This document shows positions 31,998 to 48,281 of a stretch of 64,000 nt of DNA, one piece after another; position 1 is the first letter of the stretch; every line of letters begins with the position of its first letter. The notes beneath the pieces are model-generated. The model made no database searches, had not been told where the DNA came from, and was given only the letters and a program-made list of their open reading frames with translations. The stretch is from Hydrogenophaga sp. BPS33 (GTDB lineage Bacteria > Pseudomonadota > Gammaproteobacteria > Burkholderiales > Burkholderiaceae_C), in the NCBI RefSeq assembly GCF_009859475.1, contig NZ_CP044549.1, positions 3,658,001-3,722,000 of the forward strand, given 5' to 3'. A program made the translations under genes and the position numbers.

Positions 31998-32052
31998 TGG
32001 TGCCTCGAGGCGGACTTGAACCGCCAAGTCTTGCGACGGGGGATTTTAAGTC
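31998..32052 (-). pseudogene. 3' half of the host tRNA-Leu(UAA), split by the element
   Basis: Read on the minus strand this holds the 3' anticodon-stem strand, a short variable arm (GTC-GCAA-GAC), the T arm GGCGG-TTCAAGT-CCGCC, the acceptor strand TCGAGGC, discriminator A and CCA. It begins inside the anticodon loop at the 11-bp core shared with the right end of the element. The matching 5' half (acceptor GCCTCGA) is 16.2 kb away at 48241-48281. The sequence on the element side of the core does not supply a replacement 5' half, so this gene is broken. Confidence 0.88.
32042..32052. repeat. Left attachment core (11 bp)
   Basis: GATTTTAAGTC is repeated exactly at 48241-48251. It corresponds to the anticodon loop and part of the stem of the split tRNA-Leu. 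The two copies mark the crossover of the integrase and the limits of the element. Confidence 0.85.
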
Positions 32053-32168
32053 TATATCTAACTCAACCCGGCACCATGGAACACGCGTAAGCACTTGATT
32101 TTGCTAGGTTTCCAGTGTGCAGCGCTGCGCTGCGTGGTGCCGAATTGTCTCACACGGTGGTCACTTGC

Positions 32169-32186
32169 TACGCACGGTTTACGCAC
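32169..32186. repeat. Direct repeats TACGCAC at left end, candidate integrase arm sites
   Basis: TACGCAC occurs at 32169-32175 and 32180-32186, one helical turn apart. The same pair occurs near the right end at 48185-48191 and 48195-48201, next to the integrase gene. Paired short repeats flanking both cores are what tyrosine integrases use as arm-type sites. Confidence 0.5.
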
Positions 32187-32209
32187 CGGGTATCATGCCT
32201 AGCAGCCTT

Positions 32210-32296
32210 GCGCGGGTGGCGAAATCGGTAGACGCCCGAGACTTAAAATCTCGTATCCGTAAGGGTGTGCGGGTTCGATCCCCGCCCCGCGCACCA
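32210..32296 (+). tRNA. tRNA-Leu(UAA), element-borne
   Basis: An intact 87-nt type II tRNA with encoded CCA. The acceptor stem is GCGCGGG/CCCGCGC. The anticodon arm is CGAGA-CTTAAAA-TCTCG, giving anticodon UAA. The long variable arm is typical of Leu, and the T arm is GCGGG-TTCGATC-CCCGC. It lies 158 bases inside the left boundary of the element and reads UUA (and UUG by wobble) codons, the same set as the host tRNA-Leu the element has broken. Its sequence differs clearly from the host gene in stems and variable arm, so it is not a simple duplicate. Confidence 0.96.
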
Positions 32297-32303
32297 TTGA
32301 AAA

Positions 32304-32319
32304 AGGCCCCGAAGGGCCT
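32304..32319 (-). terminator. Intrinsic terminator for the leftmost minus-strand genes
   Basis: Read on the minus strand, AGGCCC-TTCG-GGGCCT is followed by TTTTT. It lies 13 bases beyond the stop of the last minus-strand gene and just past the end of the plus-strand tRNA-Leu. It should stop transcription of the element's small-gene operon before it runs antisense through the tRNA. Confidence 0.75.
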
Positions 32320-32331
32320 CGCCGAGGGGCG

Positions 32332-32661
32332 TCACGCGGCCTCAGGCGCGACAAGCTGTGCGTTGGCAAGATGTAGCAGCACCGATGCCGCATACAACAA
32401 CTGGTCGTCGATGTCGGCATTGACCTTGTCAATGAGGTCGGCCAGGCAGCCAATCCGCACGAAGGCAGCCGATTGCGCATCGCGCGCGCCCTCCTTCATC
32501 GCGGCTTCCGCGTGCGAGAGTAGCCCCTCCGCGGCATGCTGCAACGAAAGGATGACATCGCTGTCTCGCTCGATTGCTGAGGCTTTGAGAGCGGCGATTG
32601 CGTTGTAGATGTTGCTCAGGCTGTCCAAAAGTCCGGCGTGGTCTAGAGTGATCTCAGCCAT
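32332..32661 (-). CDS. Unknown small element protein, 109 residues
   Basis: The protein is helical and rich in Ala and Leu, with no recognised motif. The ATG at 32661 is supported by a GGAGGTG ribosome site. It overlaps the preceding gene by 8 bases, so both are translated from one message, which ends at the hairpin just downstream. No membrane segment or Cys cluster. It may be a satellite accessory protein; there is no sequence basis to say more. Confidence 0.6.
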   Translation of the reverse strand: MAEITLDHAGLLDSLSNIYNAIAALKASAIERDSDVILSLQHAAEGLLSHAEAAMKEGARDAQSAAFVRIGCLADLIDKVNADIDDQLLYAASVLLHLANAQLVAPEAA

Positions 32662-33037
32662 GCTGCACCTCCAACGCTTCTCGGTTGCCCTCAGTGGTGC
32701 TGATCTGTTGCCCCATGGCGTGCAAATGGAGGCGGCACAGGTGCAGCAGGCTCTCGCATGCAAAGGCCAAACTGTCAGCGCATCCCGCGCCACCGCAATA
32801 TTGGGAGACGGAATGCAGCAACGCATCGACGCACTGGCCGGCGCGATCGACTTGTTCGCGGCCGCACTGCGACATTGCCAGATCGACGCTGGTCAGAGTG
32901 GCCTCGGACATGAGGCGCAGTCCCAACAGCTCGGGGCCGCTTTCTGCGTTGGGAGCGTCAATGGCCATGAGACATGCAAGCGCCTGATCGATGCACGAGT
33001 AGGCGTCGCCAAATCGATCCAGATTTTCGATAGCCAT
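32654..33037 (-). CDS. Unknown small element protein, 127 residues
   Basis: A helical protein with seven or more Cys, clustered as CGGAGCADSLAFACESLLHLC in its second half, shortened here to note the spaced Cys pattern near residues 85-105. The start at 33037 has an AGGAGG site. It follows another small gene with one base between and overlaps the next by 8 bases. I do not recognise the family. The Cys residues could bind metal, but they do not form an obvious finger. Confidence 0.6.
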   Translation of the reverse strand: MAIENLDRFGDAYSCIDQALACLMAIDAPNAESGPELLGLRLMSEATLTSVDLAMSQCGREQVDRAGQCVDALLHSVSQYCGGAGCADSLAFACESLLHLCRLHLHAMGQQISTTEGNREALEVQHG

Positions 33038-33038
33038 C

Positions 33039-33350
33039 TCAAGCCTCCTTACCTGCGCCGGCGAAGGCCCGGCCGTAGTTCCAGCAATCGTGATTGCCAA
33101 TGATTGCGCCGCCAGGGCGCGCCGCGTTGTCTGCCATACCGCCGATGTACGTGGCAAGCATTTTCCCGGCGTCGATCAGGTTTGTGACCTGATGCTCTTC
33201 AGCCTCGATCGCCTCAATCAGTACGTTTCTGAGCGTATCGCAGCAGCCGGCGATCCTTTCAAGAACTATTCGGTACTGCTCGGCAGTGAGTGCATTTGAA
33301 TGCCTTGCGAGATCTGCAGGGGTGGCGGGGATAGACTTCAAGGTAGCCAT
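33039..33350 (-). CDS. Unknown small element protein, 103 residues
   Basis: A helical, acidic protein containing IAGCCDTLRNVLIEAIEAEE near residue 34, with adjacent Cys. It is the first of three tightly packed small genes. A long perfect palindrome lies about 90 bases upstream of its start and may control this small operon. It has no membrane span, and no family assignment is possible from sequence alone. Confidence 0.6.
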   Translation of the reverse strand: MATLKSIPATPADLARHSNALTAEQYRIVLERIAGCCDTLRNVLIEAIEAEEHQVTNLIDAGKMLATYIGGMADNAARPGGAIIGNHDCWNYGRAFAGAGKEA

Positions 33351-33437
33351 GATGTGCGGTCCTTTCAGAGTTGCACGTTTTGGTCAGACGGTCCTTGGTG
33401 TTCCCGCACCTTGGGCCGTCGCTTTTTGCCTCAGACA

Positions 33438-33463
33438 AGGATGTGGAAAATTTTCCACATCCT
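33438..33463. promoter_or_regulatory. 26-bp perfect palindrome, candidate operator
   Basis: Each 13-base arm reads AGGATGTGGAAAA followed directly by its complement, with no spacer. It lies between a 63-residue element gene and the three-gene small operon, upstream of the latter. A spacer-free palindrome of this length is more like a protein-binding site than a terminator. The XRE regulator of the element is one candidate binder. Confidence 0.5.
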
Positions 33464-33481
33464 CCGCCCCGAGGCACGGCG

Positions 33482-33673
33482 TTATTCCTTTGGCTCCTTG
33501 GCCTTGTCGATCTTCTCGCGCACCCAGGGCGCGCCGCCCAGCCGCTTCAGCTTGTCGCGCTGCGGCCCGGTCATCTTGATCGAGACGGGGTCCATGGCTT
33601 CACTTTGTTCCTTCGGCTTGCGGCCTGCGCCTGGGCGTGAGCCACCTCTGCCACTTGGTTTGCTGTTTTCCAT
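33482..33673 (-). CDS. Small Gly/Arg-rich element protein with a GGSRPGAGRKPK motif
   Basis: This 63-residue protein starts with MENSKPSGRGGSRPGAGRKP. That Gly-Arg-Pro-rich head occurs in many phage-encoded small DNA-binding proteins and terminase small subunits. The rest contains a MTGPQRDKLKRLGGAPWVRE helix. A second element protein (38324-38644) carries the same motif. DNA binding is likely; the specific role is not known. Confidence 0.6.
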   Translation of the reverse strand: MENSKPSGRGGSRPGAGRKPKEQSEAMDPVSIKMTGPQRDKLKRLGGAPWVREKIDKAKEPKE

Positions 33674-33890
33674 TTGATTAATCGTATTACCAATAATCAA
33701 AAAGCGCAAACTGTTTTTTCGGCGGCCGATGAGCGGGTCCCCATGATCGGCGGTGTTTGAGGCCCACCGTGAAAAACTACGCGGACGGAAGCACCTGCAA
33801 CCGAACAGAATCTCTTCGATGTGAAAGTCTCCGGTGAGACGGGGATCTACCTGCATCGTGTGGGCGGGCCATTCACGACGAGGAAGAGCT

Positions 33891-34448
33891 ATGCGAGTAT
33901 TTTTGCTGCTGGCCGCCATGATGCTCACAGGCTGCGCAACCCCACCCCCGCAGATGGATCGCGCAGCCTGGTTGGAGATGACGACGCGCATCGTGGACGC
34001 GAAGCCGGAGCAGGCTATTTCTACCGCCGAAAAGGTGCTCAAGCTTGCGGACCCAAATGACACACGGTTCAACCACCGCAACGATGGGTTCGACGCCGTG
34101 CGTCACTCAGTGACATGGGTGATATTTGCCTTTATCGACGAGTATTTCCTTTGGACTGTCACGGCAATGCCAGAAGGCCAACGGACTTCTCTGCGGGTGA
34201 ATGCCTCGAGAACGAGTGCGTCCACCACCGCGGCCATGGTCGCGCCTGGTGTCGCAGCGCCGCTGATGACTGGCGCCGCTCCCGGCCACGCGATCCAAGA
34301 CCCCAAGCTATACGCGCTGTTCTGGTCGCGGTTCGATAGCCTCCAAGGCAAAGGAAAGTGGACCACCTGCGATGAGTTCGGGGCGCCGAATACCGGCAGC
34401 ACCGCGCTCGCCCTGTGTGGCATCGGGCGTGAGGACTTCAAGCCGTGA
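33891..34448 (+). CDS. Predicted lipoprotein, first gene of a plus-strand accessory module
   Basis: The 185-residue protein has a lipoprotein signal (MRVFLLLAAMMLTGC, Cys 15). The mature part has no recognised domain. A hydrophobic stretch near residue 120 (TAAMVAPGVAAPLMTGAAPG) may be a loop or short helix. The ATG has an AGGAAGAG site. Its stop overlaps the GTG of the next lipoprotein (GTGA). The set is inverted relative to the structural genes, as expected for lysogenic-conversion cargo. Confidence 0.7.
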   Translation: MRVFLLLAAMMLTGCATPPPQMDRAAWLEMTTRIVDAKPEQAISTAEKVLKLADPNDTRFNHRNDGFDAVRHSVTWVIFAFIDEYFLWTVTAMPEGQRTSLRVNASRTSASTTAAMVAPGVAAPLMTGAAPGHAIQDPKLYALFWSRFDSLQGKGKWTTCDEFGAPNTGSTALALCGIGREDFKP

Positions 34449-34792
34449 AGATCACGCTGGCCGCTCTGATACCCGCTGTGCTCGCGGCTGGATGCATGTC
34501 GCCTGATAGCGAGCATCGCGAGTATGTGAAGCTTTTCCTGAATGACCCCGAGTCGGCGCAGTTCAGGAGCGTCGAGCAATCAAGGCGCCGAGCGTTGGCG
34601 TGGTGCGGCGAGGTGAACGCAAAGAACCGTATGGGCGGCTTGGCCGGCTTCACCCGCTATGTGCTGGTGATGCCGGATGCCGACTTGAAAATCAAGGTCA
34701 AGACAGAGGTGGAGGAAGCCAAAATGTTTGCGGAGTTCACCACCGAAGGCCAATCCGGCTTTGAAGGGAAGTGGTCGATCTGGTGTAGGTAG
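34445..34792 (+). CDS. Small predicted lipoprotein, GTG start
   Basis: The 115-residue protein has a lipoprotein signal ending LAAGC (Cys 17). The mature part begins SPDSEHREYVKLFLNDPESAQF, a pattern common in small phage and plasmid-borne lipoproteins, and ends in KWSIWCR. GTG is the only start that overlaps the upstream stop and keeps the signal intact. Translational coupling to the first lipoprotein is likely. Function unknown. Confidence 0.68.
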   Translation: MKITLAALIPAVLAAGCMSPDSEHREYVKLFLNDPESAQFRSVEQSRRRALAWCGEVNAKNRMGGLAGFTRYVLVMPDADLKIKVKTEVEEAKMFAEFTTEGQSGFEGKWSIWCR

Positions 34793-34827
34793 CCGACACC
34801 CCTCTGACAGCCCGCCACGAGTTCGAC

Positions 34828-35430
34828 ATGATCAAGACCAACGACTTTAAAAGTATCCTCGCCAACAAGTGGAAGGATTTTCTGACGATGTTCGATGGGC
34901 GAGGGCTAGAGGCTGCCGTCTTCGCGGTGTTGCTAGCTGGCGTGATCATCATTGGTGCGTATGTGCTCAACTTTGCTTTTGAGCCAGATACAGTGCTTTC
35001 AAAGGACCCGGGCAAATGGGGTTCGTTCGGTGACTACGTGGGCGGGCTACTGAACCCCATCGTGGCGCTCGCAGCGCTCGGTTTGCTCGCCTACTCTGTT
35101 CGGATTCAGCGGCAAGAATTAGCTGCGACGCGCAAAGCATTGCGAGATCAGGCAGACCATTCACGGGACATGGTGCGCCTCAATGCCATGGTGACGGTGA
35201 TCGACGCGCACGAGAGGCAGATCGCGCAGCTACGCGCGGCTGGACAGCGCGTCCGTGAAACCCGGCACCAGGTGGACCCTGAGGCAGACGCCATCAGTGA
35301 GAATTTGCGAGAGAAGCTGGACAGAGAAGTCAAAGGCCGGGACAAGTGGCTACGCGAAGTCGAGAGCCTGCTCAAATCGAGCTCCATTCAGGACATTGCC
35401 CGGGAATACGCTCGGAGATTTGGACTTTAG
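34828..35430 (+). CDS. Membrane protein resembling putative phage abortive-infection (PutAbiC-type) proteins
   Basis: The 200-residue protein has two membrane helices (about 30-50 and 75-95). Between them is the segment WGSFGDYVGGLLNPIVALAA. After them comes a coiled coil with RIQRQELAATRKALRDQ. The FGDxxGGxLNPxxA pattern followed by a QRQEL coiled coil is what I associate with the N-terminus of putative phage abortive-infection proteins and related prophage cargo. The usual C-terminal region of that family is short or absent here. It lies in the element's inverted accessory module, which suits a defence or superinfection-exclusion role. Confidence 0.5.
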   Translation: MIKTNDFKSILANKWKDFLTMFDGRGLEAAVFAVLLAGVIIIGAYVLNFAFEPDTVLSKDPGKWGSFGDYVGGLLNPIVALAALGLLAYSVRIQRQELAATRKALRDQADHSRDMVRLNAMVTVIDAHERQIAQLRAAGQRVRETRHQVDPEADAISENLREKLDREVKGRDKWLREVESLLKSSSIQDIAREYARRFGL

Positions 35431-35520
35431 AGTCCTGAAAAACACCTTCGCTGAGCTGCGGCGCTTCAACTCATCGCCGGACGCACGCCGTATCCGCCCT
35501 CTAGGACACGCGCCACCGCC

Positions 35521-35948: not shown

Positions 35949-36090
35949 GTCGGTCCTTTCGTTGAAAAACAAAAGGGCCTCTGGGGGCCGGGTGGATCGA
36001 GCGCCGTTCCCAGTGGCCCGAAAAGGGGCCGCGCCATTCCGCGAGTCGCATCAAGATTTCTCTTGAAGGCATGAGGGCTCCCCTCACGCA

Positions 36091-36112: not shown

Positions 36113-36184
36113 AGTCAATCCACGAGAGGATTCTAACGCCCCCACACAGCTGCAGGTAAGCATTCGCGCACCGCCACGCCAAGG

Positions 36185-38281
36185 TCAGCTCACCGCCGTC
36201 CGCAGGCCGAAGCGGTTCTCCATGGCACGCGTCACCGGCCCGCTGCCGTTGCTGATGGTGTCCGCCACTGCAGTCAGAACGAGATCTAGCAGCTGCGTGC
36301 CGTCGGGCGCGGTGCCGCGCTGCTGAACCGACCCCTGCACCTGCGTGCCGGTCTGATTGATGATGGTCAAGGAAACTCCGCCACCAGAACCGCCGGACGT
36401 TACCGAGCCGGCGCCGGTAGGGATCACTGTGCCGCCCTGGTTTCCCATCATCAGGTACTGCTTACCGCCCATGGCGAGCATCTCCGGGCCGTTCTCGTTG
36501 ACCTCGTACAGGCCGCCGGCCATCACACCGCCGCCGTTGGCCTTGCCAGAGGCTCCGGTTATCCATTTCATGAACGTTCCGAAGGCGTCTCCAACTGCAC
36601 CGGATCCTGTCCCGCCTTGCACCATGTCACCGAACAGGTGACGCGCAAGCTTTGCAGCCATTGCCTCCGCGATCATTCGATTGAGCATCTTGGCGAAGCC
36701 TTGAGCAATGTTGTCGTATTCACCGTTCAATATGTCGGCGAGTCCGGAGCCCAGAGCGCCCTGGATGTTCTCCGCCGCGGTCTTTGCGAACTTGTCCATC
36801 TCGTTGACGGTCTTCTTACTTCCGCTGGTTGCAGCTTCGTACGCGTCCTGAGCGCCGAACACCGCACGCGCGTACGTGTCCCAGTCGACAGCACCCTGCG
36901 TCAGCAGATCGTTGAGCTTGGCGAGTTCGACATTCAGCTCTTCAGCCGGCGTGCGCGTCGACTCGTACACAGCCAAGCCGGCGTCCTTCAAGGCCTTCTT
37001 GCGCTCGATGGTCTCCTCGTCGAGCTTCTTGAATTGCTCTGTCGCCGCCAGCAGCTGCTTGTCCAGGTCGAGCTGCTGCGCCAGGGCGACCAGTTGTTCC
37101 TGCGTGACCCCGCCCACAAGCTTTAGGCGCCCCTCCTGGATGTCGCGCAGCACCGTCTCCTCGACACTCAGTTGCTCGGTGGCGCGCAGCTGCTTCTCGA
37201 GGTTTTCAAGGTACGTCTGCGCTTCGCGGATCGCCGGGTCTGCACGAGGTGTCTTGATCGGTTTGACGTCTTCCGGGATGTCGAGCGACGGCAGAGTCGA
37301 CGCGTTGGGCGGGTTGACGAAACCACGGCCGCCGCCGACTTGCTTGGGGCGATTCACGTCGGCAGCGTTGAACTTCGCCCGCGCGGCCTCGAGCTTTCGG
37401 GCCGCCTCTGCAATCTGCGAGTCGAGGTCGGCGGCGAAGTTGAACGGGCTGCCCTTTCGGTCCTGCAGTGCATCGAGTTCCTTCTTGAACTTGCGCACAT
37501 CGGATGCGAGGCCGGCCAGCGCCGCCTTCTCACCGAACGTGGTGATGTCGTCGAACACACGATTGAAAGCAGGCACCAGATAGCTCGCCAGGGACCGCGA
37601 TACATCCTCGATGTTGGACTCGAATTTCGCCAGCTCCTTGTTGAACTTGTCGACCTCGACCGCGGTCTGGGTGGTCACCGACCCGACAAGCTTCTGCTCT
37701 TCGGCCAAGTCGTTCAGGAACGGGATGATGTCCTTCGCCGCCTTGCCAAACAGCTCCTGCGCCGCCCGCGCCTTTGAACCGTCGTCGGCAAAACCTTTCA
37801 TGGCAACCGCCGTCTGGCGTAGTGCCTCTGCCGGGTCCAGGCGCTTGAGTTCCTCGATGTCGAGATTCAGAGCCTTCAGCACGGCGCCGGGCCCCTTGTC
37901 GGGGTCTGCTTCGTTCAGAACCTGATTGAACTTGATCAAGGTGCCGCTGACCTGGTCAAAGCCGTGGCCGGTCCTGCGTGCAACATCGTCGAGCGCGCTG
38001 ATGTTCTCGATCGTGGCGCCGGACACGTCGCGCAAGTCGTTGAACTGATCGATGGCAGTGATCGATCCGCGGATCCAGACGGCGAGCGCAGTGGTGGCCG
38101 CAGTGAAGCCAACGCCTATCGCAGTGCCCGCGTTCGCCCAGGCCTTTTGCGTGTCCTCTGCGCTCTTCTTCTGGTCGCGGGCGATCTGCGCAGCGGTGCG
38201 GCTGGACTTGCGTTCGGCCTGGTCCATGCCGCGTTCGAAGCCGCCGATTTTTGCCAAAATGTCGAGCGTTAAAACGCCCAA
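36185..38281 (-). CDS. Phage tail tape-measure protein
   Basis: The 698-residue protein has the features of a tape-measure protein that sets tail length. The N-terminus LDILAKIGGFERGMDQAERK is followed by a hydrophobic stretch (about 50-72) and long helical, coiled-coil regions (about 270-480). The C-terminal segment GGGVMAGGLYEVNENGPEML is typical of the family. No tail tube, tail terminator, assembly chaperone or baseplate gene is nearby. It is therefore an isolated tail gene in an otherwise head-type element, either retained for a special use or left from a larger prophage. The upstream ribosome site is weak, so the start is uncertain. Confidence 0.85.
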   Translation of the reverse strand: MGVLTLDILAKIGGFERGMDQAERKSSRTAAQIARDQKKSAEDTQKAWANAGTAIGVGFTAATTALAVWIRGSITAIDQFNDLRDVSGATIENISALDDVARRTGHGFDQVSGTLIKFNQVLNEADPDKGPGAVLKALNLDIEELKRLDPAEALRQTAVAMKGFADDGSKARAAQELFGKAAKDIIPFLNDLAEEQKLVGSVTTQTAVEVDKFNKELAKFESNIEDVSRSLASYLVPAFNRVFDDITTFGEKAALAGLASDVRKFKKELDALQDRKGSPFNFAADLDSQIAEAARKLEAARAKFNAADVNRPKQVGGGRGFVNPPNASTLPSLDIPEDVKPIKTPRADPAIREAQTYLENLEKQLRATEQLSVEETVLRDIQEGRLKLVGGVTQEQLVALAQQLDLDKQLLAATEQFKKLDEETIERKKALKDAGLAVYESTRTPAEELNVELAKLNDLLTQGAVDWDTYARAVFGAQDAYEAATSGSKKTVNEMDKFAKTAAENIQGALGSGLADILNGEYDNIAQGFAKMLNRMIAEAMAAKLARHLFGDMVQGGTGSGAVGDAFGTFMKWITGASGKANGGGVMAGGLYEVNENGPEMLAMGGKQYLMMGNQGGTVIPTGAGSVTSGGSGGGVSLTIINQTGTQVQGSVQQRGTAPDGTQLLDLVLTAVADTISNGSGPVTRAMENRFGLRTAVS

Positions 38282-38323: not shown

Positions 38324-38644
38324 TCAGCGGTTGTTGACCACAAGGCGCGGAGGGGTGGAGGCCTTGAACCTTCCGCTACTCCGCTCCGCCTTGGCTTGCC
38401 GATCTGCCTTCTTGCCGCCGTCGGCTTTCTTCACGTGCGTGTACTGCACCGCCGCAATGGCCGCTCGGACCTGCGTAGGCGACGCGTTGACAACACCCAA
38501 GGCAACGTTTTGAAGGAGGCTGAGCATGTCGGTCTCCGGCACGCGTACGGGTTCCTGCTTGGGTTTGGGCTTCCGCCCCGCACCAGGCCGAGCACCGCCC
38601 GCGTTCGCACGGGGGCCTCCGCTCTTTCCTTTAACTCCGGCCAT
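38324..38644 (-). CDS. Phage protein with GGARPGAGRKPK head, small-terminase-like
   Basis: The 106-residue protein begins with a Gly/Arg/Lys-rich tail (KSGGPRANAGGARPGAGRKP), then a helical middle (MLSLLQNVALGVVNASPTQV) and another basic segment (KKADGGKKADRQAKAERSSG). Such heads occur on small terminase subunits and other phage DNA-binding proteins. It lies between the HNH nuclease and the tape-measure gene. It may assist DNA recognition at packaging; that is inference. A second, better small-terminase candidate lies at 42271-42657. Confidence 0.6.
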   Translation of the reverse strand: MAGVKGKSGGPRANAGGARPGAGRKPKPKQEPVRVPETDMLSLLQNVALGVVNASPTQVRAAIAAVQYTHVKKADGGKKADRQAKAERSSGRFKASTPPRLVVNNR

Positions 38645-38917: not shown

Positions 38918-39370
38918 CTATCCATGGCCTGGTCCCCCCGGGTCTATGCCTCGCTCGCGCAGGTACTCCGCCGTGATCTTGTGGGCCGTGCCTTGCTGGT
39001 AGCTCGGGCCTTCTGGCCATCCGTCAATGCCCACGCGGTGGCGCGCGGTCTTGTCGTTCTCCATCAGGCGCTTGGTGCTGTCGTGACAGGGCTTGCACAA
39101 CGACTGCCAGTTCGATCGATCCCAGAACAGCTTTTGATCGCCTTGGTGCGGGATTACGTGGTCGACCACGTTGGCGACCTCCACCCGCCCATTGCGCGCG
39201 CAGAAGATGCAGAGCGGATTGCGATCGAGGAACACCGCACGCGCCTTCTGCCACCGGCCGCCATAGCCACGCTCAGCAGTGGTGCGGCCATCACGCCAAG
39301 AGCCCGCTGCGGTGCGCAGGGTGGAGGTGGGAAGGGTGCGCACGGTGCTCTTGAGGGTGCGCAGTGTCAC
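38918..39370 (-). CDS. HNH endonuclease (phage packaging type)
   Basis: The 150-residue protein has the HNH core: CIFC and CKPC pairs bind zinc, DHVIPH supplies the catalytic His, and NWQSLCKPCHDSTKR holds the Asn and last His. In HK97-like phages such HNH proteins stimulate cleavage at cos by the terminase. The N-terminus is basic. Its start overlaps the stop of the Cys-rich gene upstream (ATGA), placing it in the same translated chain as the capsid and protease genes. No large terminase is found, so a helper phage would have to supply one. Confidence 0.88.
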   Translation of the reverse strand: MTLRTLKSTVRTLPTSTLRTAAGSWRDGRTTAERGYGGRWQKARAVFLDRNPLCIFCARNGRVEVANVVDHVIPHQGDQKLFWDRSNWQSLCKPCHDSTKRLMENDKTARHRVGIDGWPEGPSYQQGTAHKITAEYLRERGIDPGGPGHG

Positions 39371-40015: not shown

Positions 40016-40024
40016 GTGCTTTCC

Positions 40025-40285
40025 TTAAAGGACTCGTTCCCAGCCGCTGCCCTCGCGTGAGGAGAAGACCGATCCGGCCTTGATGGCCTTCACGGACACG
40101 TATGTCCCACCATCGCGGCGCACAAGTGAGCCAGGGGGGTAGTCGAGTGCTGATTGATGGTCGCCCGCGAAGGTCATGCACTTGTCCAGCTTGGCTTGCA
40201 TGCCGTCGACGCGCTTCTCGAGAGGCTCGACAGCTTCACGGATCAGGTCGCCCATAGCGGCACCGAAGGCTTCGTGATCAAACAT
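40025..40285 (-). CDS. Unknown element protein, 86 residues, coiled-coil N-terminus
   Basis: It starts MFDHEAFGAAMGDLIREAVE and continues with a helical segment likely to form a coiled coil (PLEKRVDGMQAKLDKCM). The second half (LVRRDGGTYVSVKAIKAG) looks like a small beta domain found in other phage proteins. The start at 40285 has an AAGGATC site and overlaps the protease stop by 8 bases. This arrangement is common just after capsid genes, so a virion decoration or accessory role is possible. Confidence 0.6.
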   Translation of the reverse strand: MFDHEAFGAAMGDLIREAVEPLEKRVDGMQAKLDKCMTFAGDHQSALDYPPGSLVRRDGGTYVSVKAIKAGSVFSSREGSGWERVL

Positions 40286-40895
40286 GGGTGATCCTTTGTT
40301 GCTTGTTCCTCTCATAGTCCGGATGGTCTATGAGGAGAACGGCGCCTGCGCGAGGCGGGGAGATGAGGCGAACGGCGCCGAGAGAACGCTGAATGGAAGC
40401 GTCTGGGTTTGCGGGGATGACCACCGCACTGACCTCGTAGAGCTCCCAGTCGGTGTAGCGACGCCCACCGCTTGGCAACGGCTCCCAACTGCGCCCCATG
40501 AAGCCGATAGAAAAGCCAGTCACCAGGCCCGCTTCGACCATGCGCCAAACCTCATCCGCCTGGCCAATGCCCTCGGCGAACTCGGCTTCGATCCACAGTC
40601 CGCGCCCACGCACCTCGACGCTGCGGATCCAACCAATGGGCACATCGTGTTTGTGCTGCCAGAGCATCGGTAGTGGTGTCTTCCACTTGCCGCCTTTGGG
40701 ATCAACGATGTCGCCCACGCGGTCAACCGAATCGGTGGACGCGAAGCCGCGGACGTGACGCGTGCCAGACGCAACGAACTTCTCCACACCACTGAGTTGC
40801 AGGTCGAGGCGCTTGCTCACCAATGGGTCTGCGCTCCACGGCGGACGCTCCAGAGCGTCGATTGCAGCCTTCACGGCTTGCCAGGTGTGGCTCAT
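40278..40895 (-). CDS. HK97-family prohead protease
   Basis: The 205-residue serine protease would mature the capsid shell. It has FASTDSVDRVGDIVDPKGG, the His in LPMLWQHKHDVPIGW, the Ser in LVTGFSIGFMGR and the Glu in WELYEVSAVVIPANPDA, the normal set for the S78 family. Its ATG overlaps the capsid stop (ATGA) and GGAGGG precedes it. The order capsid then protease is reversed relative to the HK97 order portal, protease, capsid. No portal gene is adjacent. Confidence 0.9.
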   Translation of the reverse strand: MSHTWQAVKAAIDALERPPWSADPLVSKRLDLQLSGVEKFVASGTRHVRGFASTDSVDRVGDIVDPKGGKWKTPLPMLWQHKHDVPIGWIRSVEVRGRGLWIEAEFAEGIGQADEVWRMVEAGLVTGFSIGFMGRSWEPLPSGGRRYTDWELYEVSAVVIPANPDASIQRSLGAVRLISPPRAGAVLLIDHPDYERNKQQRITHV

Positions 40896-41914
40896 AGGCC
40901 CTCCAGCACCACCACGGCGCCAGGCCGTTGACGGCTCCAATTCGCTGCCAATTCCACTCTCATCGCAACGCTGTTGGTCTGCCACATGCTCACCGGCAGA
41001 ACGGGCGAGCCGGCGTCATTGGGATCGTCGGACATCTGCAAGGTGACCTCACCAGCCGAATCCACGCTGAATGCGCCAAGCGCAGCTGCAATGCCGGTGG
41101 GGTCGATCAAGGTCAGCGTGCTGCCCGACGTGCTCGCCGTGTCGGCGCGCGACGTCAGCACCGGGATGCCGAGCAGCTCGCCGCCGCGTGGGCCGATGCC
41201 GGGGAACAGGTAGCGGCCGCCCGCGTCGGTCATCGTCGCGATCCCCGTGGCCGTTGCAGGGTCGGTCACGAAATAGGCAGATGCCAGATCGCCGCGGAAG
41301 GCTTGAATCATGGCCTTCAGGTCTGCGCCGAAATCGGTGGTCGCCGACAACTGCGTTGCTCCGAAGGCGATGCTTGCCGGCACCTCACCCGCGACGCCGG
41401 CATTGTCTGGATCGAGCAGCGCTTCGTCCATCACAACCGTCACCGCGCGCAACAGGTCGTCCTGCAGCGTTGCTTCCAGCCCTGGTTCATTCGCGAGGAG
41501 CATTTCCTTCGTCGTGACAATGATCGCTGCGACCTTCAATGGATCAAGCGAACTGCCCGCAAGCGTGGCGCGCGAGAGAGGCTTCGACTTTCCTTGGCTT
41601 ACCCAGTAGCCACGCGCACCGGCCTGTACCGCAAGCATTCGGGTGACGAAGGGGACACGGCGAAGGCCTTCCATGCGACCGAGCACCGATTCATCCCGGG
41701 CCAGGCCGAAGAATTCCCGCGCGTCCAGACCTGTGTCGACTGTCCCCATTGCGCTCACAGCGGCCTTGGTGACGTCGGCGGCGAGACCCTCACCCCAGCG
41801 CGTGCGCGCGAAGGCGTGAATGGCGTCGGCGTCCGTTGAGTTGGTGAGGGTTCGAGCGATCAGGCCGCGCACGTAGTTGCGACCTGGCGTTGCGATTGCG
41901 AGTGATTTGTTCAT
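40892..41914 (-). CDS. HK97-fold major capsid protein
   Basis: The 340-residue protein matches HK97-type capsid proteins: a helical N-terminus (about 1-110) that likely acts as scaffold, the segment KVAAIIVTTKEMLLANEPGL, and a P-domain with FVTDPATATGIATM and LFPGIGPRGGELLGIPVLTS. The protease gene overlaps its stop. The element thus encodes its own shell and protease, the hallmark of capsid-forming satellites, while lacking portal and large terminase. The upstream gene is a small helix-turn-helix protein 88 bases away. Confidence 0.88.
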   Translation of the reverse strand: MNKSLAIATPGRNYVRGLIARTLTNSTDADAIHAFARTRWGEGLAADVTKAAVSAMGTVDTGLDAREFFGLARDESVLGRMEGLRRVPFVTRMLAVQAGARGYWVSQGKSKPLSRATLAGSSLDPLKVAAIIVTTKEMLLANEPGLEATLQDDLLRAVTVVMDEALLDPDNAGVAGEVPASIAFGATQLSATTDFGADLKAMIQAFRGDLASAYFVTDPATATGIATMTDAGGRYLFPGIGPRGGELLGIPVLTSRADTASTSGSTLTLIDPTGIAAALGAFSVDSAGEVTLQMSDDPNDAGSPVLPVSMWQTNSVAMRVELAANWSRQRPGAVVVLEGL

Positions 41915-42262: not shown

Positions 42263-42270
42263 GGTCGGCC

Positions 42271-42657
42271 TCAGTGCGGTTTGCCGAAGAACTCATCGGC
42301 GGCGTCTTCGTCGTCGTCACCGGCATGAGTCACCTTGGACTCATCAACCGGCGTCGCACCGAGCTTTGACAGGAGCGAACTCAGCGCCTTCATCGACTCG
42401 ACTCCGACCTCACCCTCGTCCATCCGTGCGGACAACCGGCAGGCCATGCGAAGCAGCAACCGATGGGCCGAGTGCAGCCATGGCAGGTCCCGCACCAGCT
42501 CATTCCAGGTGGCAATCTCCGCCTCGGTCATGGCGGCGTATGGCTCGCCGATCGATCGCGTGCGCTTCGGGCCTGTTCGGTCTCTGTAGCGCTGCGGATC
42601 GTGGGCAGCCGCGCCGGAAACTGCGGCCTTGGCTTTTGGTGTTCTTGCTCTAGGCAT
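42271..42657 (-). CDS. Terminase small subunit-like protein
   Basis: The 128-residue protein begins with a basic head (PRARTPKAKAAV), then a YRDRTGPKRTRSIGEPYAAM segment and helices (EAEIATWNELVRDLPWLHSA) resembling the P27-type small terminase. The C-terminus is acidic (DDDEDAADEFF). Small terminases bind the packaging site and recruit the large subunit. If correct, the satellite would redirect a helper's large terminase to its own DNA. The match is by pattern only. Confidence 0.6.
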   Translation of the reverse strand: MPRARTPKAKAAVSGAAAHDPQRYRDRTGPKRTRSIGEPYAAMTEAEIATWNELVRDLPWLHSAHRLLLRMACRLSARMDEGEVGVESMKALSSLLSKLGATPVDESKVTHAGDDDEDAADEFFGKPH

Positions 42658-42979: not shown

Positions 42980-43308
42980 CGTGGTTCCTTTGGGTAAGCC
43001 GACCGCAGGTGATCGAGCAGGTCGGCGCGGAGGTGGGCGGGCGTGTCTTCGATCTCTTGGCGCATCTGCTGGCGCGCGGCTGGGCTGTCACCCCAGTGGT
43101 CGCAGGCGCGTGCTGCGGTTTCGAGTAGCGCCTCCGTGGTGGCATGCGCCTCAAGCAGGAAGTCCAACAGCTCCGGCTTGTGCGCAAGCACGGTAGCGCG
43201 CAATTCAGGCGTAAGGCGTTCGGCGGGCTTCACCACCAGGGCGTCGCCGTCGGCCCGTACCGTCATGCCGGCGGCGTAGATGGCCTGGCAGAGTTCGGCG
43301 GATGTCAT
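42976..43308 (-). CDS. Small TubC-like docking-domain protein linked to the primase genes
   Basis: The 110-residue protein begins with about 50 residues that resemble the TubC N-terminal docking fold (AELCQAIYAAGMTVRADGDA, LRATVLAHKPELLDFLLEAH). This domain often precedes phage primase and polymerase genes. The rest is helical and acidic. It overlaps the DUF3987-type gene (ATGA) and the next gene, so it belongs to the replication module. Confidence 0.6.
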   Translation of the reverse strand: MTSAELCQAIYAAGMTVRADGDALVVKPAERLTPELRATVLAHKPELLDFLLEAHATTEALLETAARACDHWGDSPAARQQMRQEIEDTPAHLRADLLDHLRSAYPKEPR

Positions 43309-44864
43309 AGCCGGGCCTCCGCGTTTTCCTCATCGGCTGGCGAACTATGCGAACTTGGCGAACATTGAGCGTGCGCGCGGTCTCCAGGCGGTTTTTGCTC
43401 TTCGCTAACAATGCGAACTTGCGAACTTACTTCCGTCCCAATGGGCTTTTGTTCGCTTCGTTCGCTTTCTTCGCCGGGGCCTGAATCGGCTTGAACCGCG
43501 CGCCGTTGCTTGTTGTTCGCATAGTTTGCTTTGTTCGCGCTCAGTTCATAGAACTTCGTCGGCCGGCCTGGGCCGCTGCGATCTTCTTCCACCACGATGC
43601 GCGGCGGTGTGGCCGTCAGCAGTTCATCGAGTGCGGCGTCGATCCTCGTCTTGTTGACGTGGCCCCGAAAGCAGTTCACCGTGATCTGCTTTCGCGTCAC
43701 CCTGGTGTTGGCTTCCAGGAACGCCACGATCTTGGCGGCGGTGTCGTTGGTTTCGGCCACTTCGGCCTCGTCGGCTGCGCTCCCAAAAACGAACTTCACC
43801 GACTCGACTGAGTAGCGCACCCATGCGAGGGCGGCGTCGATGTGATCCACCTCGACCGTGGTGGTCAAGTCGCACAGCGCGAACAGCATGGCGATGCGCA
43901 GCAGCATCGGCGCTCGCCGCTCGATCAGGGCGTTGATGCGTTCACCGTTGCTTCGATCGTTCAACTCACCCAAGTAGAGCTTGCGCCATCTGGCCGCAGC
44001 GCCTGGCGACAACTCAATCCGCATGGTGTCGCGCTCTGCCCACCGATCGGCTTGGCAGAACTGCAGCACCTCCAGTACCCGGCCGGCGAGGCGCTCGATC
44101 TCATCCTTGGGTGTCGCCTTGGGGAATGGCAGCATCTTGGTTCGCTCTGCCCAGAAGGGCATGAAGCGATTCATGAAGCCGTTGGTCAAATCCTTGGCCG
44201 CGATGCTGGACATCAGCTCGCTGGGCGTGATGGCCACCGACAGGCATATGTGCGGATGGCTCGCCCAGAGGCGGTTCGTCTTTGTCGCAGGCCTCAGTGA
44301 ACCACCGTCCCACGCATCTCGAAGCGCGGAGGAAAGGGTGTTGCCGTCGCGCTTGCCCTGCGTGAGGATGTTGACGAACTCGGACTCGATCACCAGCAGG
44401 CGCTTATCCAGGATCGGCGGGACTTCCTCCTTGCCTTCGCGGTAGCCGTCATGGATCAGAAACACGAGCCCTTCACGCGAGGACAGTCCACCGGTGTGGA
44501 TCTGCGGCGCGAGTTCGCCATTCATGTCCTGCACAGCGTGGGCAATGCGCTTGATGATCGAAACGCTGTCGCCTTTCCGACCCTCCCCGGATCGGCCGAC
44601 GTGCATCGTGAATAGCCGGGCGTGGTGCCAGGTGTTGCCCACGGGCATGTACGGGCCTCGACCCACTGCGCAGCTTAGGTACGCCATGGCGTTGGCCGCG
44701 ATGGCATAAGGGTTGGCTTCTGTGGTTTCACCGCCTGCACGGGCGATTTCGCCCACCAAGCCGTACAGACAGGATGCTGACGGGCGCGGGGCGTTGCGGT
44801 GGTTGTCAGGCGCGTCATCGTCGATCGGGAACGCCGCCTCGACACTCTCAAGTACCGGCTTCAA
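43305..44864 (-). CDS. DUF3987-type replication protein (primase-associated ATPase/helicase-like)
   Basis: The 519-residue protein fits the DUF3987 family that accompanies satellite and phage primases. A P-loop-like stretch is in FTMHVGRSGEGRKGDSVSII (near residue 90), followed by an acidic ESEFVNILTQGKRDGNTLSS segment. The C-terminal 120 residues hold a winged-helix-like part and then a low-complexity tail rich in Ser and Gln. It overlaps the Toprim primase gene upstream (ATGA). Together they should form the element's initiation module. Confidence 0.75.
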   Translation of the reverse strand: MKPVLESVEAAFPIDDDAPDNHRNAPRPSASCLYGLVGEIARAGGETTEANPYAIAANAMAYLSCAVGRGPYMPVGNTWHHARLFTMHVGRSGEGRKGDSVSIIKRIAHAVQDMNGELAPQIHTGGLSSREGLVFLIHDGYREGKEEVPPILDKRLLVIESEFVNILTQGKRDGNTLSSALRDAWDGGSLRPATKTNRLWASHPHICLSVAITPSELMSSIAAKDLTNGFMNRFMPFWAERTKMLPFPKATPKDEIERLAGRVLEVLQFCQADRWAERDTMRIELSPGAAARWRKLYLGELNDRSNGERINALIERRAPMLLRIAMLFALCDLTTTVEVDHIDAALAWVRYSVESVKFVFGSAADEAEVAETNDTAAKIVAFLEANTRVTRKQITVNCFRGHVNKTRIDAALDELLTATPPRIVVEEDRSGPGRPTKFYELSANKANYANNKQRRAVQADSGPGEESERSEQKPIGTEVSSQVRIVSEEQKPPGDRAHAQCSPSSHSSPADEENAEARL

Positions 44865-45691
44865 GATTGCACCTCCACGGCGGCGCCGAGCCGATGCAGA
44901 TCATTGAAGTCCGTGTCTTTGGCACCCCTCGGCAGATCACCGAATTGCGGCAGCGCCAGCAGGCCCCCGACAGCGCGAGCGGCCTCGGTTGCGGCGGTGA
45001 GGCCGGGATTGCCATCAGTCGTCCAATCGTCGTCTGCGGCCACTACCAAGATGAGGCTTGGAAACTTGCTGCGCAGGGCCGCGGCGACCGGCAATAGGTT
45101 CCCTGCATTGAAGGCGACGGCGACGGCCAGGTCGGTGACTTCGTGGAGGGTGGCGCCGGTTGCGTATCCCTCGCACACGATCAAGCGGCCAGAGGGCTTT
45201 CCAATGGGGTGATAGCACCCCTTGACACGGCCGCCCGGCATAAAGCGCTTGGAGCCGTCCGCGGCGATGCTTTGGAGGCTGTGCAGGTTGCCAGCGGCAT
45301 CGCGCAAAGGAATCAGCAAGTTGTTGCAGGCATCGACGCGCAAGCCGTGAGCCTGGACACCCTTGGCTTGAAGGTAAGGGTGATCCCCCACCGGGGTAGC
45401 AGTTGCCCAGCGCCGGGCCGACGCATCAGCCGCTTGAGCCTGGCGGCGCAGCTGCTCAGCGGCATGCTGGCGCCGCAGTTCGTTCATGCGGTTGGAAAAC
45501 GCTTTGCGCTCCGCCGGGCTCAGTTCCCGATCCTCGCGGCGATTCAGAACGATGCCGCATTTGAAGCAGTGCGCGACGCCATGCGAGTCGTCGAGGATCG
45601 TGATGCCCATGTCCTTGACGCTCGGCTTCTTGCCGCAGGCCGGGCACATGATGCGATGGTCGCCGGGCGCGTGGTCAGTCCAGACAATCAT
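44861..45691 (-). CDS. Zinc-ribbon/Toprim primase
   Basis: The 276-residue protein starts with a zinc-ribbon (CPAC near residue 16, CFKC near residue 42) like P4-type primases. A Toprim-type domain follows: RLIVCEGYATGATLHEVT supplies the catalytic Glu and LILVVAADDDWTTDGNPGL the DxD. KDTDFNDLHRLGA closes it. It would make primers for element replication. It overlaps the genes on either side by 4 bases. Confidence 0.85.
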   Translation of the reverse strand: MIVWTDHAPGDHRIMCPACGKKPSVKDMGITILDDSHGVAHCFKCGIVLNRREDRELSPAERKAFSNRMNELRRQHAAEQLRRQAQAADASARRWATATPVGDHPYLQAKGVQAHGLRVDACNNLLIPLRDAAGNLHSLQSIAADGSKRFMPGGRVKGCYHPIGKPSGRLIVCEGYATGATLHEVTDLAVAVAFNAGNLLPVAAALRSKFPSLILVVAADDDWTTDGNPGLTAATEAARAVGGLLALPQFGDLPRGAKDTDFNDLHRLGAAVEVQS

Positions 45692-45966
45692 TGCGCACCT
45701 CCGGCTTGGCTGAGGTGCGCAAGCACGTCGTTCCAGTGGCCGAACGTGTGTGCTTCGTTCCAGCGGCTCACGGTCCAGATGTGTCGACCATCACCGGCAC
45801 GGCGACTCAGGGTGAGCGCGCGGCCAAGAATGGCAAATTCAGCGCGCGCCGTGTCGAATGCCTTGCGGTCGGGGACGTCTTGCGCGAAAATCGAGGCCTC
45901 AGCTTTTTGGTCTTCTTCCTGCGTCACCCAGCCCGCCAGCTGGGTTTCGCTTTTGTGGGGGGCCAT
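45688..45966 (-). CDS. Unknown element protein, 92 residues
   Basis: The protein begins MAPHKSETQLAGWVTQEEDQ. The start at 45966 shares a base with the stop of the AlpA-like gene and it ends by overlapping the primase. A longer open frame extends upstream through the G run, but that part is a poly-proline artefact of the homopolymer. The sequence RKAFDTARAEFAILGRALTL suggests a helical domain. Function unknown. Confidence 0.62.
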   Translation of the reverse strand: MAPHKSETQLAGWVTQEEDQKAEASIFAQDVPDRKAFDTARAEFAILGRALTLSRRAGDGRHIWTVSRWNEAHTFGHWNDVLAHLSQAGGAQ

Positions 45967-46090
45967 CAGATTGCACCTCCACGCGTCGGCAGCCACCTCT
46001 CGTAGCTGGGTCGATGGATCAGCAGCTTTTTGCCGACGCGCACGCACGCATGGCCAAGGCCATTGGTGTCGCGGTGGCGGAGCTGCCACC

Positions 46091-46329
<239 letters not shown>

Positions 46330-46457
46330 CGGGTCGTTCTGTTGCTTCGCCGTAGTTGGCATGTGGCACCTTTCGGATGGTGCGCGGCGCCACGACGATT
46401 GTTTGTGCGGCACCGCGCTGGGTTGCGGTGCTGCAATGAAACCAATGGCGTGTCGTG

Positions 46458-47051
46458 TTAACCCGGTTTCTTTTTGAGCGAATTCAGCTTTTTCAGATCA
46501 CTGATGCCATCCCGCACGCCGGTCCAGATCAACTTTTTGGCCCGCCCCTCTTCGACCCACTCCGCCGCAATGTCTTCATAGCACTCCCGCTTTGAGAGCG
46601 TGGGCCGATGCTTTTGCTTGTACTCCAGCCTACGCTTCCATTCCATCCATGCGACTTCTGCAAGTGGTCGGCCTCCGCCACCTTCCCTACTACGCATTGA
46701 AGCGATCAACATTTCGACGGGTGCAAGAATGTCTTCGATGGGTTCTCCCGGTTCGCTCGCACTGATCGCGTCACGCAGGATGTTGGCAAGAGTTATGAGC
46801 GCGGGCGACTTGATCAGCAGCGGGTCAACACATGCCAAGTTCAGGATCTCGAAGAACCTGGCATGCGCACGGCCTTCGTCGCTATTTCGGCTCGCTACGC
46901 CGTACGCGATTACCCCTTTCGTCGACAGCACCAATGGCCACCGTGGCCGGTTTCGTTGAATGTAGGAACCATGCTCACCATGCACCACCACGGTGAGCGG
47001 CTTCTTCGCTGACTTGGAAGCTTTCGGAGCAGACTTCTTCTTTGCGACCAT
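46458..47051 (-). CDS. Unknown element protein, 197 residues, Lys-rich N-terminus
   Basis: It begins with a basic tail (MVAKKKSAPKASKSAKKPLT) and a beta-rich part (VVVHGEHGSYIQRNRPRWPL). The C-terminal helical half contains LEYKQKHRPTLSKRECYEDI and ends in Lys-rich LKKLNSLKKKPG. The basic ends suggest nucleic-acid binding. It starts one base after the integrase stop with a GGAAGGG site, so it is probably co-transcribed with the integrase. The family is not recognised. Confidence 0.65.
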   Translation of the reverse strand: MVAKKKSAPKASKSAKKPLTVVVHGEHGSYIQRNRPRWPLVLSTKGVIAYGVASRNSDEGRAHARFFEILNLACVDPLLIKSPALITLANILRDAISASEPGEPIEDILAPVEMLIASMRSREGGGGRPLAEVAWMEWKRRLEYKQKHRPTLSKRECYEDIAAEWVEEGRAKKLIWTGVRDGISDLKKLNSLKKKPG

Positions 47052-47052
47052 G

Positions 47053-48159
47053 TCAGCCCTTCCCTTCCAGATGCTGCTCGGCGATCGCGACAGCATCCGC
47101 GGCCGCAAGGTGCTCGTACCGCTTGAGCATGGCCAGGGTCTGGTGACCACTGACGACGGCCGCCTGAGCCAGATTGGCGCCACCTCGGAGCATCTTCGTC
47201 ACGCTGGTGTGCCTCGTGGTGTGCAGCACAACACGGTCAAGTGGATCGTCGCGATCGGCCCAAAGGCCGGCATCAATGCGGCACTGCTTCCACGCGGCGT
47301 CGGGGTTGAACACCTTGGATGGGTCGCGCGGATTGAAGAACACGAAGTCGCTCTTCAGGGGCTTCACCTTCTGGGCCTCCGAAAGCGCGGCGCGCACGCT
47401 GGTGACCAACGGCAGTGCCCGGGCCTTCCCATTCTTGGTCTTTCCGAGGATGGCCACCGACTCGTCAAAGTTCACGTCTTTCCAACGAAGGTTCAGCACC
47501 TCCGAGCGGCGTGCAGCCGTCGTCAGACACATGCGAACAAACAGCCCCAGCATGGGCCAGGTGCTGCGATCAGCCTGCTCGAGCAGCTCGCCCTCCTCTT
47601 TCGCAGTCAGGATGCGCGTGCGGCCTGTGCCCTCCGTGAGCTTCTTCACCTTGCCGCCCTTCATGGGATGCGCGTCGATGATCTCGTGCTCCATGGCGTA
47701 GTTCAGAACGCTTGAAAGCGATGCCAGGTAGCGATTGACTGTTGCGGGCGTGACCTTGGCAGTGGTCGCGATTGAGCCGCCCGGGACGCTGCGGTATGCA
47801 GCCTTGTTCTGGAGCTTGGCCTTCGCCGCGTTGATGTCTTTGCGCGAGATCTCGCCGATGCGCATCAGCCCCATGTGAGCTATCCAAAAATCGAGGTGCG
47901 ATGCGGACCAGTACTTGGTGCCCTTCATTGCCGGCGCGCTGGTGAAGTCTTCGATCACCGACGCAAGTGTGGTGCCGCTTACGGCCTTTTCCTGAACGGC
48001 ATCGGCGTCGTTATTGCGGATCCATTCCTTTGCCTCGCGCTCGGTGTCGCAGACCTTCGACTTGCTTGCGAAACCTTGGCGGCGAACGTAGGCCCGGAAC
48101 TTCGCGACGGGCTTGCCTGACGACTTGTCGACCTTCATGGTCTTGGTGATTGAACCCAT
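47053..48159 (-). CDS. int: Tyrosine-recombinase integrase
   Basis: The 368-residue protein integrates the element. An N-terminal arm-binding domain (about 1-60) and a core-binding SAM-like domain (about 65-165) precede the catalytic domain. Catalytic residues are visible: Arg in CLTTAARRSEVLNLRW, His-x-x-Arg in HTTRHTSVTKML, His in SGHQTLAML, and the nucleophile Tyr in KRYEHL. It lies 81 bases from the right core and is oriented away from it, the usual layout. Its crossover site is the anticodon loop of tRNA-Leu, and paired TACGCAC repeats near both ends are its likely arm sites. Confidence 0.93.
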   Translation of the reverse strand: MGSITKTMKVDKSSGKPVAKFRAYVRRQGFASKSKVCDTEREAKEWIRNNDADAVQEKAVSGTTLASVIEDFTSAPAMKGTKYWSASHLDFWIAHMGLMRIGEISRKDINAAKAKLQNKAAYRSVPGGSIATTAKVTPATVNRYLASLSSVLNYAMEHEIIDAHPMKGGKVKKLTEGTGRTRILTAKEEGELLEQADRSTWPMLGLFVRMCLTTAARRSEVLNLRWKDVNFDESVAILGKTKNGKARALPLVTSVRAALSEAQKVKPLKSDFVFFNPRDPSKVFNPDAAWKQCRIDAGLWADRDDPLDRVVLHTTRHTSVTKMLRGGANLAQAAVVSGHQTLAMLKRYEHLAAADAVAIAEQHLEGKG

Positions 48160-48184
48160 GGTGCGCTCCAGATTGAGACGTCGT

Positions 48185-48201
48185 TACGCACAATTACGCA
48201 C
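48185..48201. repeat. Direct repeats TACGCAC at right end, candidate integrase arm sites
   Basis: TACGCAC at 48185-48191 and 48195-48201 repeats the pair found near the left end. It lies between the integrase start and the right attachment core. Confidence 0.5.
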
Positions 48202-48240
48202 ATCACCGCTCAAACCCGCATCAAATATACACCTTCAGAT

Positions 48241-48251
48241 GATTTTAAGTC
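48241..48251. repeat. Right attachment core (11 bp)
   Basis: GATTTTAAGTC, identical to 32042-32052. To its right the sequence continues as the 5' half of the split tRNA-Leu; to its left it is element DNA. Confidence 0.85.
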
Positions 48252-48281
48252 CCCTGTGTTTACCGATTTCACCATCGAGGC
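48241..48281 (-). pseudogene. 5' half of the host tRNA-Leu(UAA), split by the element
   Basis: On the minus strand this reads acceptor GCCTCGA, a D arm with GGTGAAATCGGTAAAC, and the anticodon stem GGGGA leading into CTTAAAA. Joining it at the core to the fragment at 31998-32052 restores a 7-bp acceptor (GCCTCGA/TCGAGGC) and a 5-bp anticodon stem (GGGGA/TCCCC). Beyond the core, element sequence does not provide a substitute 3' half. The promoter of this tRNA is presumably still to the right, so a 5' fragment fused to element RNA may be made. From here to 48494 no gene is seen. Confidence 0.88.

Follow-up and report, generated by a model that had tools for sequence, protein, structure and literature searches.

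Lysogeny that depends on a phage-borne transfer RNA (tRNA) has been demonstrated experimentally in mycobacteriophages (Guerrero-Bustamante & Hatfull 2024; PMC10865867). In the cases quoted in the accessible part of that paper, a tyrosine integrase uses a bacterial attachment site (attB) inside a tRNA gene, the common core is short (8-17 bp) and does not rebuild the gene, and the phage brings a tRNA of the same isotype. Examples given among actinobacteriophages are Fionnbharth, cluster L and Gaia; a Lactobacillus prophage is named as a likely case, and prevalence elsewhere is said to need study. Here we describe an element of ~16.2 kb (core to core) that shares these properties in Hydrogenophaga sp. 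BPS33. It lies in the 64-kb stretch of DNA that we analysed (C1:3658001-3722000, called the window), on a contig of 6.3 Mb in a genome of 6.77 Mb and 3 contigs. It very probably integrates into the anticodon loop of the host tRNA-Leu(UAA) gene without rebuilding it, and supplies a replacement tRNA so that UUA stays readable.

The principle of tRNA-dependent integration is already known, having been published in 2024. Our locus differs from the actinobacteriophage examples described in that source in that the tRNA is tRNA-Leu(UAA), the host belongs to the Burkholderiales, the carrier is satellite-like and the system is known from sequence alone; moreover, the tRNA is built onto the attachment site of the element (attP), inverted relative to the host gene, and in some relatives it contains an intron (compare PMC10865867). 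Genomic islands of Sinorhizobium meliloti also inactivate a leucine tRNA gene and carry a foreign isoacceptor of the same kind, but there the gene is tRNA-Leu(UAG) and the bacterial class is another one, according to the available portion of the report, in which no mention of an intron, of the tRNA's orientation or of its placement at attP was found (PMC11476347). A later paper states, in its accessible text, that the tRNA replacement feature was not seen in another prophage group (PMC12429752). Canonical tRNA-targeting islands, as catalogued by Islander, likewise combine a tyrosine integrase with a site in a tRNA gene, and anticodon-centred sites are common among them; unlike the window element, the islands described in the part of that work available rebuild the tRNA from a copied fragment (PMC4383910). 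What is added here is a satellite-like carrier with partial virion genes in the Burkholderiales, the recurrence of an inverted tRNA-Leu(UAA) at attP in nine of nine elements of the integrase family that show both ends, with mostly different gene content, a split or replaced gene in 9 of 67 genomes of the genus, and a group I intron after U34, inside the core, in five elements of probably two lineages.

The element splits one tRNA-Leu(UAA) gene and carries another

The host tRNA-Leu(UAA) gene is interrupted in its anticodon loop, over an 11-bp core that is common to both halves. The sequence GATTTTAAGTC matches exactly at 32042-32052 and at 48241-48251, and the same 11 bp recur in the anticodon arm of a complete tRNA gene inside the element (the cargo), inverted relative to the cores at the left and right attachment sites (attL and attR). 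The features of the site are as follows.

31998..32052, minus strand: 3' half of the split host tRNA-Leu(UAA), attL side (55 nt including CCA; intact in the related genomes G025 and G012)
32042..32052, minus strand: attachment core copy, GACTTAAAATC, common to both tRNA halves
32168..32186, minus strand: putative arm-type integrase sites, left (two TGCGTA; GTGCGTAA at 32179-32186)
32210..32296, plus strand: cargo tRNA-Leu(UAA), complete (core within the anticodon arm at 32240-32250)
48184..48201, minus strand: putative arm-type integrase sites, right (two GTGCGTAA, 48184-48191 and 48194-48201)
48241..48251, minus strand: attachment core copy, GACTTAAAATC, common to both tRNA halves
48241..48281, minus strand: 5' half of the split host tRNA-Leu(UAA), attR side (41 nt)

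When the halves are rejoined they give an 85-nt gene that ARAGORN calls as tRNA-Leu(taa). Neither element end alone is called as a tRNA. The attB of the tyrosine integrase overlaps a host tRNA gene that is not reconstructed, and the 11-bp core resembles the short cores (~10 bp) of tRNA-dependent lysogeny. We considered whether one end of the element might restore the tRNA and ruled this out, the missing half being absent from both ends. We likewise rejected a group I intron as the cause of the split in the window, because the insert is a 16-kb element and no Rfam intron reaches the gathering score in the window.

The cargo tRNA-Leu(taa) starts 157 bp inside the element and 23 bases past the left arm site, on the strand opposite to the host halves. 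Both genes fold better than shuffled sequences (z = -3.26 for the cargo, -2.38 for the rejoined host gene, whose minimum-energy fold is not the full cloverleaf). The cargo looks foreign: its best match among 19 native genes of the genus is only 68% identical, while these 19 (from 20 loci examined) are mutually at least 75% identical (mean 86%) and the rejoined host gene reaches 96% identity with one of them. It is 97% identical to the tRNA at the split site of another genome of the genus (G019); an exact cargo pattern had no match in viral contigs. An earlier note on this DNA, made by reading the sequence without searches, had described the tRNA-Leu(UAA) split in its anticodon loop, two ends that fail to supply the missing half, and a complete but different tRNA-Leu(UAA) at 32210-32296, and the ARAGORN and Rfam calls and the native-gene comparison bear it out on each of these.

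There are three copies of GTGCGTAA in the 64 kb, all of them within the two arms (0.64 copies expected; three reached in 3 of 100 shuffles). The shorter motif [TC]GCGTA is found on the same strand in both attP arms of all nine elements considered below, with 34 copies there compared to 2 on the opposite strand. An earlier test based on words shared between the arms had been strong for three of these elements (L102, L103 and L104) and weak for three others (the window, L078 and L200).

As a separate observation, a tRNA Gly-Cys-Gly cluster lies just past the window end (G000:C1:3722806-3723126), ~16.5 kb upstream of the split tRNA-Leu. In many relatives this cluster is immediately upstream of tRNA-Leu, and the arrangement here suggests another insertion or a rearrangement.

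The split gene appears to be the only tRNA-Leu(UAA) gene of the host

Under the decoding rules, UUA should require a tRNA with a UAA anticodon. The Rfam tRNA model (RF00005) found 41 tRNAs genome-wide, with leucine anticodons CAA, CAG, UAG, GAG and a single UAA, which is the cargo; this inventory is incomplete, as it contains neither tRNA-Ile(GAU) nor tRNA-Ala(UGC). A loose pattern for leucine 5' halves, run on the whole genome, hit the cargo and the split half and nothing else. With an intron-bearing tRNA as the probe, the sole matches were the split half and part of tRNA-Leu(CAA), although this probe was not very sensitive (it missed the cargo). None of the three methods found a further tRNA-Leu(UAA) in the 6.77-Mb genome, so the split gene was apparently the host's only one. 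A tRNA of this kind is likely to be essential, and if so the cell probably lives on the tRNA of the element.

Empty, split and replaced sites in the genus

A 321-nt probe of the rejoined site was compared to 67 genomes of the genus, own included. From our reading of the probe rows, the match runs uninterrupted across the core in 53 of them, including the two closest relatives, G025 (91%) and G012 (90%), which have an intact gene at the equivalent place; this speaks against the split gene being a chance resemblance. Nine have a split site or a replaced gene (G000, which is the window's genome, G006, G019, G035, G043, G044, G046, G064 and G065), and five are undecidable (G034, G036, G038, G039 and G048, where G048 is truncated at the end of a contig). 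Where the site is intact, the genome shows a single tRNA-Leu(UAA) 5' half. An intact tRNA-Leu(UAA) of the incoming type is present in eight of the nine genomes with a split or replaced site.

Many second probe matches cover only the tRNA part (75-84% identity) and might have been second tRNA-Leu(UAA) genes. All six that we fetched (L088, L090, L092, L095, L096 and L097) are tRNA-Leu(CAA), and this candidate was dropped.

Some of the nine sites look decayed. In G064 and G046 the tRNA-Leu close to tRNA-Cys is inverted and of the incoming type, and a BLASTN search with a native gene found no leftover host half in either. The G046 assembly is only 59% complete, and its tRNA has 81% identity with the closest native gene and 85% with the closest cargo, so a native gene may instead have been inverted locally there. 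G019 retains the 3' half and a cargo; no 5' half and no protein of the window element were found nearby. In G035 the two halves are 1.8 kb apart, the core of the 5' half is altered, and an intron-bearing cargo is present. These sites fit a lasting replacement of the host gene.

The arrangement recurs in the integrase family

Relatives of the integrase were gathered from genome contigs (8 loci), from genomes of the order and family, and from viral contigs. Four of 399 order genomes and four of 399 family genomes have a match (own included in both), in searches that scored at most five candidates per genome and may have missed relatives. Viral contigs contributed one relative (52% identity) besides the element's own record. 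A protein search gave 273 relatives at E ≤ 1e-60, 120 of them listed. After removal of duplicates (G468 is G111, and G466 is G222) there are 14 integrases of at least ~50% identity, own included.

Both ends of the element are visible in nine: the window, L078 (a Rhodocyclaceae metagenome-assembled genome, MAG), L102 (G453), L103 (G111), L104 (an Azonexus MAG), L105 (Magnetospirillum aberrantis), L108 (a Betaproteobacteria MAG), L198 (G776) and L199/L200 (G547). In all nine, the 5' half adjoins the integrase and an inverted tRNA-Leu(UAA) adjoins the 3' half. The rejoined host halves are called Leu(taa) in eight; the ninth, L108, is cut by a contig end. Across the eight elements with rejoinable halves the cargo is 65-88% identical to its own split host gene, and for L104 and L078 (87-88%) a foreign origin is not evident. 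Three other relatives (L079, L115 and L197) show the integrase end only, at a split 5' half.

The nine elements span 10 to 35 kb and have little else in common. TBLASTN searches with 17 window proteins (E ≤ 1e-4) against the other eight recovered only the integrase, plus the Toprim primase in G547. Among chosen open reading frames (ORFs) that we scanned, L078 has a small terminase and capsid/protease, L108 a primase and a large terminase, L102 a large terminase, and L103 and L105 internal-virion-type proteins. At 18 of 80 viral-contig integrase loci, scanned in intronless mode, no tRNA was found; 17 of these 18 integrases are distant (27-31% identity).

Two further observations concern individual relatives. 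The Rhodocyclaceae element has an int-alpA RNA at L078 5308-5376, plus strand (RF02996, 65.6 bits). M. aberrantis (L105 1130-2600) has two copies of the same tRNA-Leu 5' half at a distance of 1.4 kb, and another integrase gene lies between them; we read this as a tandem insertion at one site, one insert having a copied 5' half.

Group I introns in element-borne tRNAs

Five cargo tRNAs contain a group I intron after U34: those of G006 (L083), G035 (L082), G044 (L085), L103 and L104. ARAGORN, allowing introns, calls all five Leu(taa). The Rfam group I model scores 34.4 bits for L083, 37.2 for L103, 39.9 for L104 and 33.9 for L085 (E-values from 4e-7 to 6e-9), all four below the gathering score of 50. 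A limited literature search brought up no mention of group I introns in tRNA-Leu(UAA) genes carried by elements, which is weak evidence of absence.

The intron-bearing cargos probably form two lineages, because L103 and L104 share the window's integrase family and have near-identical cargos (98%), whereas G006 and G044 have a different integrase. This second integrase (25-28% identical to the window's) is found close to the split 3' half in each of G006, G044 and G043. In G006, G044 and G035 the cargo is at the 5'-half end, in direct orientation; for G006 and G044 the two ends are on separate contigs, and we infer that they belong to one element. Within the genus, the L083 intron as a probe gave strong matches only in G006, G035 and G044. 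There were also weak partial matches at G060:C66:7483-7581 and G015:C1:3171727-3171776.

The intron sits inside the attachment core, and we suggest that it may protect the cargo gene from being targeted by the integrase. Against this idea, only two of the nine resolved elements have the intron; the other seven, among them the window's, lack it. In these, the inverted orientation of the cargo may limit the harm, because recombination between inverted cores inverts DNA and does not delete it.

Gene content of the element

From its right end, the element encodes a tyrosine integrase, a Toprim primase, a DUF3987 protein, a small terminase-like protein, a capsid protein, a prohead protease, an HNH nuclease, a second small terminase-like protein and a tape measure-like protein, followed by small genes and the tRNA.

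47053..48159, minus strand: tyrosine integrase (PF00589)
44861..45691, minus strand: Toprim primase
43305..44864, minus strand: DUF3987 helicase/primase-like protein
42271..42657, minus strand: small terminase-like protein (phrog_83)
40892..41914, minus strand: major capsid protein (HK97 type)
40278..40985, minus strand: prohead protease
38918..39370, minus strand: HNH nuclease
38324..38644, minus strand: small terminase-like protein (PHROGs)
36185..38281, minus strand: tape measure-like protein (PHROGs)

Among 20 element ORFs scanned with PHROGs we identified neither a portal nor a large terminase, so the virion genes are partial. From this content we call the element satellite-like, though it is possible that it is a decayed prophage. 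Capsid-forming satellites of the phage-inducible chromosomal island (PICI) type are small and have an integrase, primase, HNH nuclease, small terminase, capsid and protease, and they are defined by a packaging set of their own with portal and large terminase and by mobilisation through a helper phage. The window element is like them in its size and in these six functions; unlike them, it has no identified portal or large terminase among the 20 ORFs, has a tape measure-like gene, and has no known helper. We do not class it as a member of that group.

A phage parent did not emerge from our searches. Capsid relatives in the phage collection are all below 60% identity (31-34% in the best rows), and among viral contigs the capsid matches nothing but the record of the element itself. 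For the tape measure-like protein, TBLASTN gave no match in the phage collection, and viral contigs gave weak or partial ones; all integrase matches in plasmids and phages are below 60% identity. IMG/VR holds the element as a viral record of 15,828 bp (32332-48159 of the window), which lacks the tRNA and both attachment sites.

Elsewhere in the window there is a C4 antisense RNA (RF01695, 59.7 bits) at 3067-3153, plus strand, overlapping an NYN-domain ORF (3051-3659). RNAs of this kind are known from relatives of phages P1 and P7.

Proposed mechanism and alternative explanations

In the mechanism that we propose, the tyrosine integrase would insert the element into the anticodon loop of the host tRNA-Leu(UAA) gene, the 11-bp core would be too short to rebuild that gene, and the element would contribute a whole tRNA-Leu(UAA) from a different source, built onto attP, with which the cell would go on reading UUA, much as in tRNA-dependent lysogeny. 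The cargo would then be expressed and charged, and needed while the element is integrated. Because the core is intact at both ends, precise excision should restore the host gene. Dependence of the cell on the cargo would then be limited to the integrated state and to cases in which the element was lost imprecisely. The earlier note had proposed a replacement tRNA that makes the host dependent on keeping the element. Replacement is supported by the split gene and same-anticodon cargo, and by three checks that the note had suggested: a search for other tRNA-Leu(UAA) genes (none found), for an empty site in relatives (G025 and G012), and for other elements with an integrase and tRNA-Leu near the core (nine of nine). 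Dependence on keeping the element is not, since precise excision would rebuild the host gene. At the level of sequence, the case is made by the split gene, the identical cores, the cargo, the lack of another copy, the empty sites and the recurrence.

Several findings weigh against this mechanism. TTA codons are rare: in mechanically called ORFs of at least 150 amino acids outside the element there are 5 in 13,454 codons, in 5 of 30 ORFs. A dispensable tRNA-Leu(UAA) exists in Streptomyces (bldA). In G043 we found no intact tRNA-Leu(UAA), although that assembly is in 180 contigs, and no split tRNA was found in two integrase relatives, L072 and L074 (the same as L107). At L072 (8370-8462), where the integrase is 62% identical, GACTTAAA lies upstream and there is no tRNA half; here the integrase may have used a secondary site within a protein-coding gene.

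The rarity of TTA also speaks for an alternative in which the host tRNA was already dispensable or redundant and the element merely tolerates breaking it. We regard this as quite improbable, given the intact incoming-type copies in eight of the nine affected genomes of the genus and the presence of TTA in one-sixth of the ORFs outside the element. A somewhat less improbable, but still unlikely, alternative is that the cargo helps to translate the element's own genes or to withstand defences that cut tRNAs, so that its agreement with the broken gene would be incidental or a secondary effect; this is a frequent explanation of phage tRNAs, as the available part of the lysogeny paper notes (PMC10865867). 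Yet the cargo has the anticodon of the broken gene in all nine elements and always lies beside attP, not in a tRNA cluster, and the element itself uses TTA only twice in 3,883 codons (16 ORFs). An assembly artefact is hardly credible. There is a hint of local trouble at 46099-46333, where an 87-bp near-perfect repeat (46099-46185 and 46247-46333) with a poly-G/C run between its copies, inside a probable regulatory gene, reflects either a recent duplication or a problem of assembly, but the site lies in a single 6.3-Mb contig and eight other records have the same anatomy, two of them single-contig genomes (G453 and G547).

Beyond the replacement mechanism itself, we tentatively suggest, as a possibility with the odds against it, that integrase, attP and replacement tRNA travel together, as a self-contained module for integration, among satellites and prophages whose other content differs. 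The intron after U34 in some lineages would cut the core in the DNA, so that the integrase could not target the cargo gene, and splicing would restore the tRNA; repeated capture and decay would permanently swap the host tRNA-Leu(UAA) for a foreign one.

Because the IMG/VR record of this element omits the tRNA and both attachment sites, surveys that rely on records like it may miss this strategy. Our results extend tRNA-dependent integration from actinobacteriophages to satellite-like elements of the Burkholderiales and relatives. They point to a role that group I introns in the anticodon loops of tRNAs may have, and that can be tested, as a shield of the gene against an integrase, and they suggest a route by which a core tRNA gene may be swapped for a foreign one.

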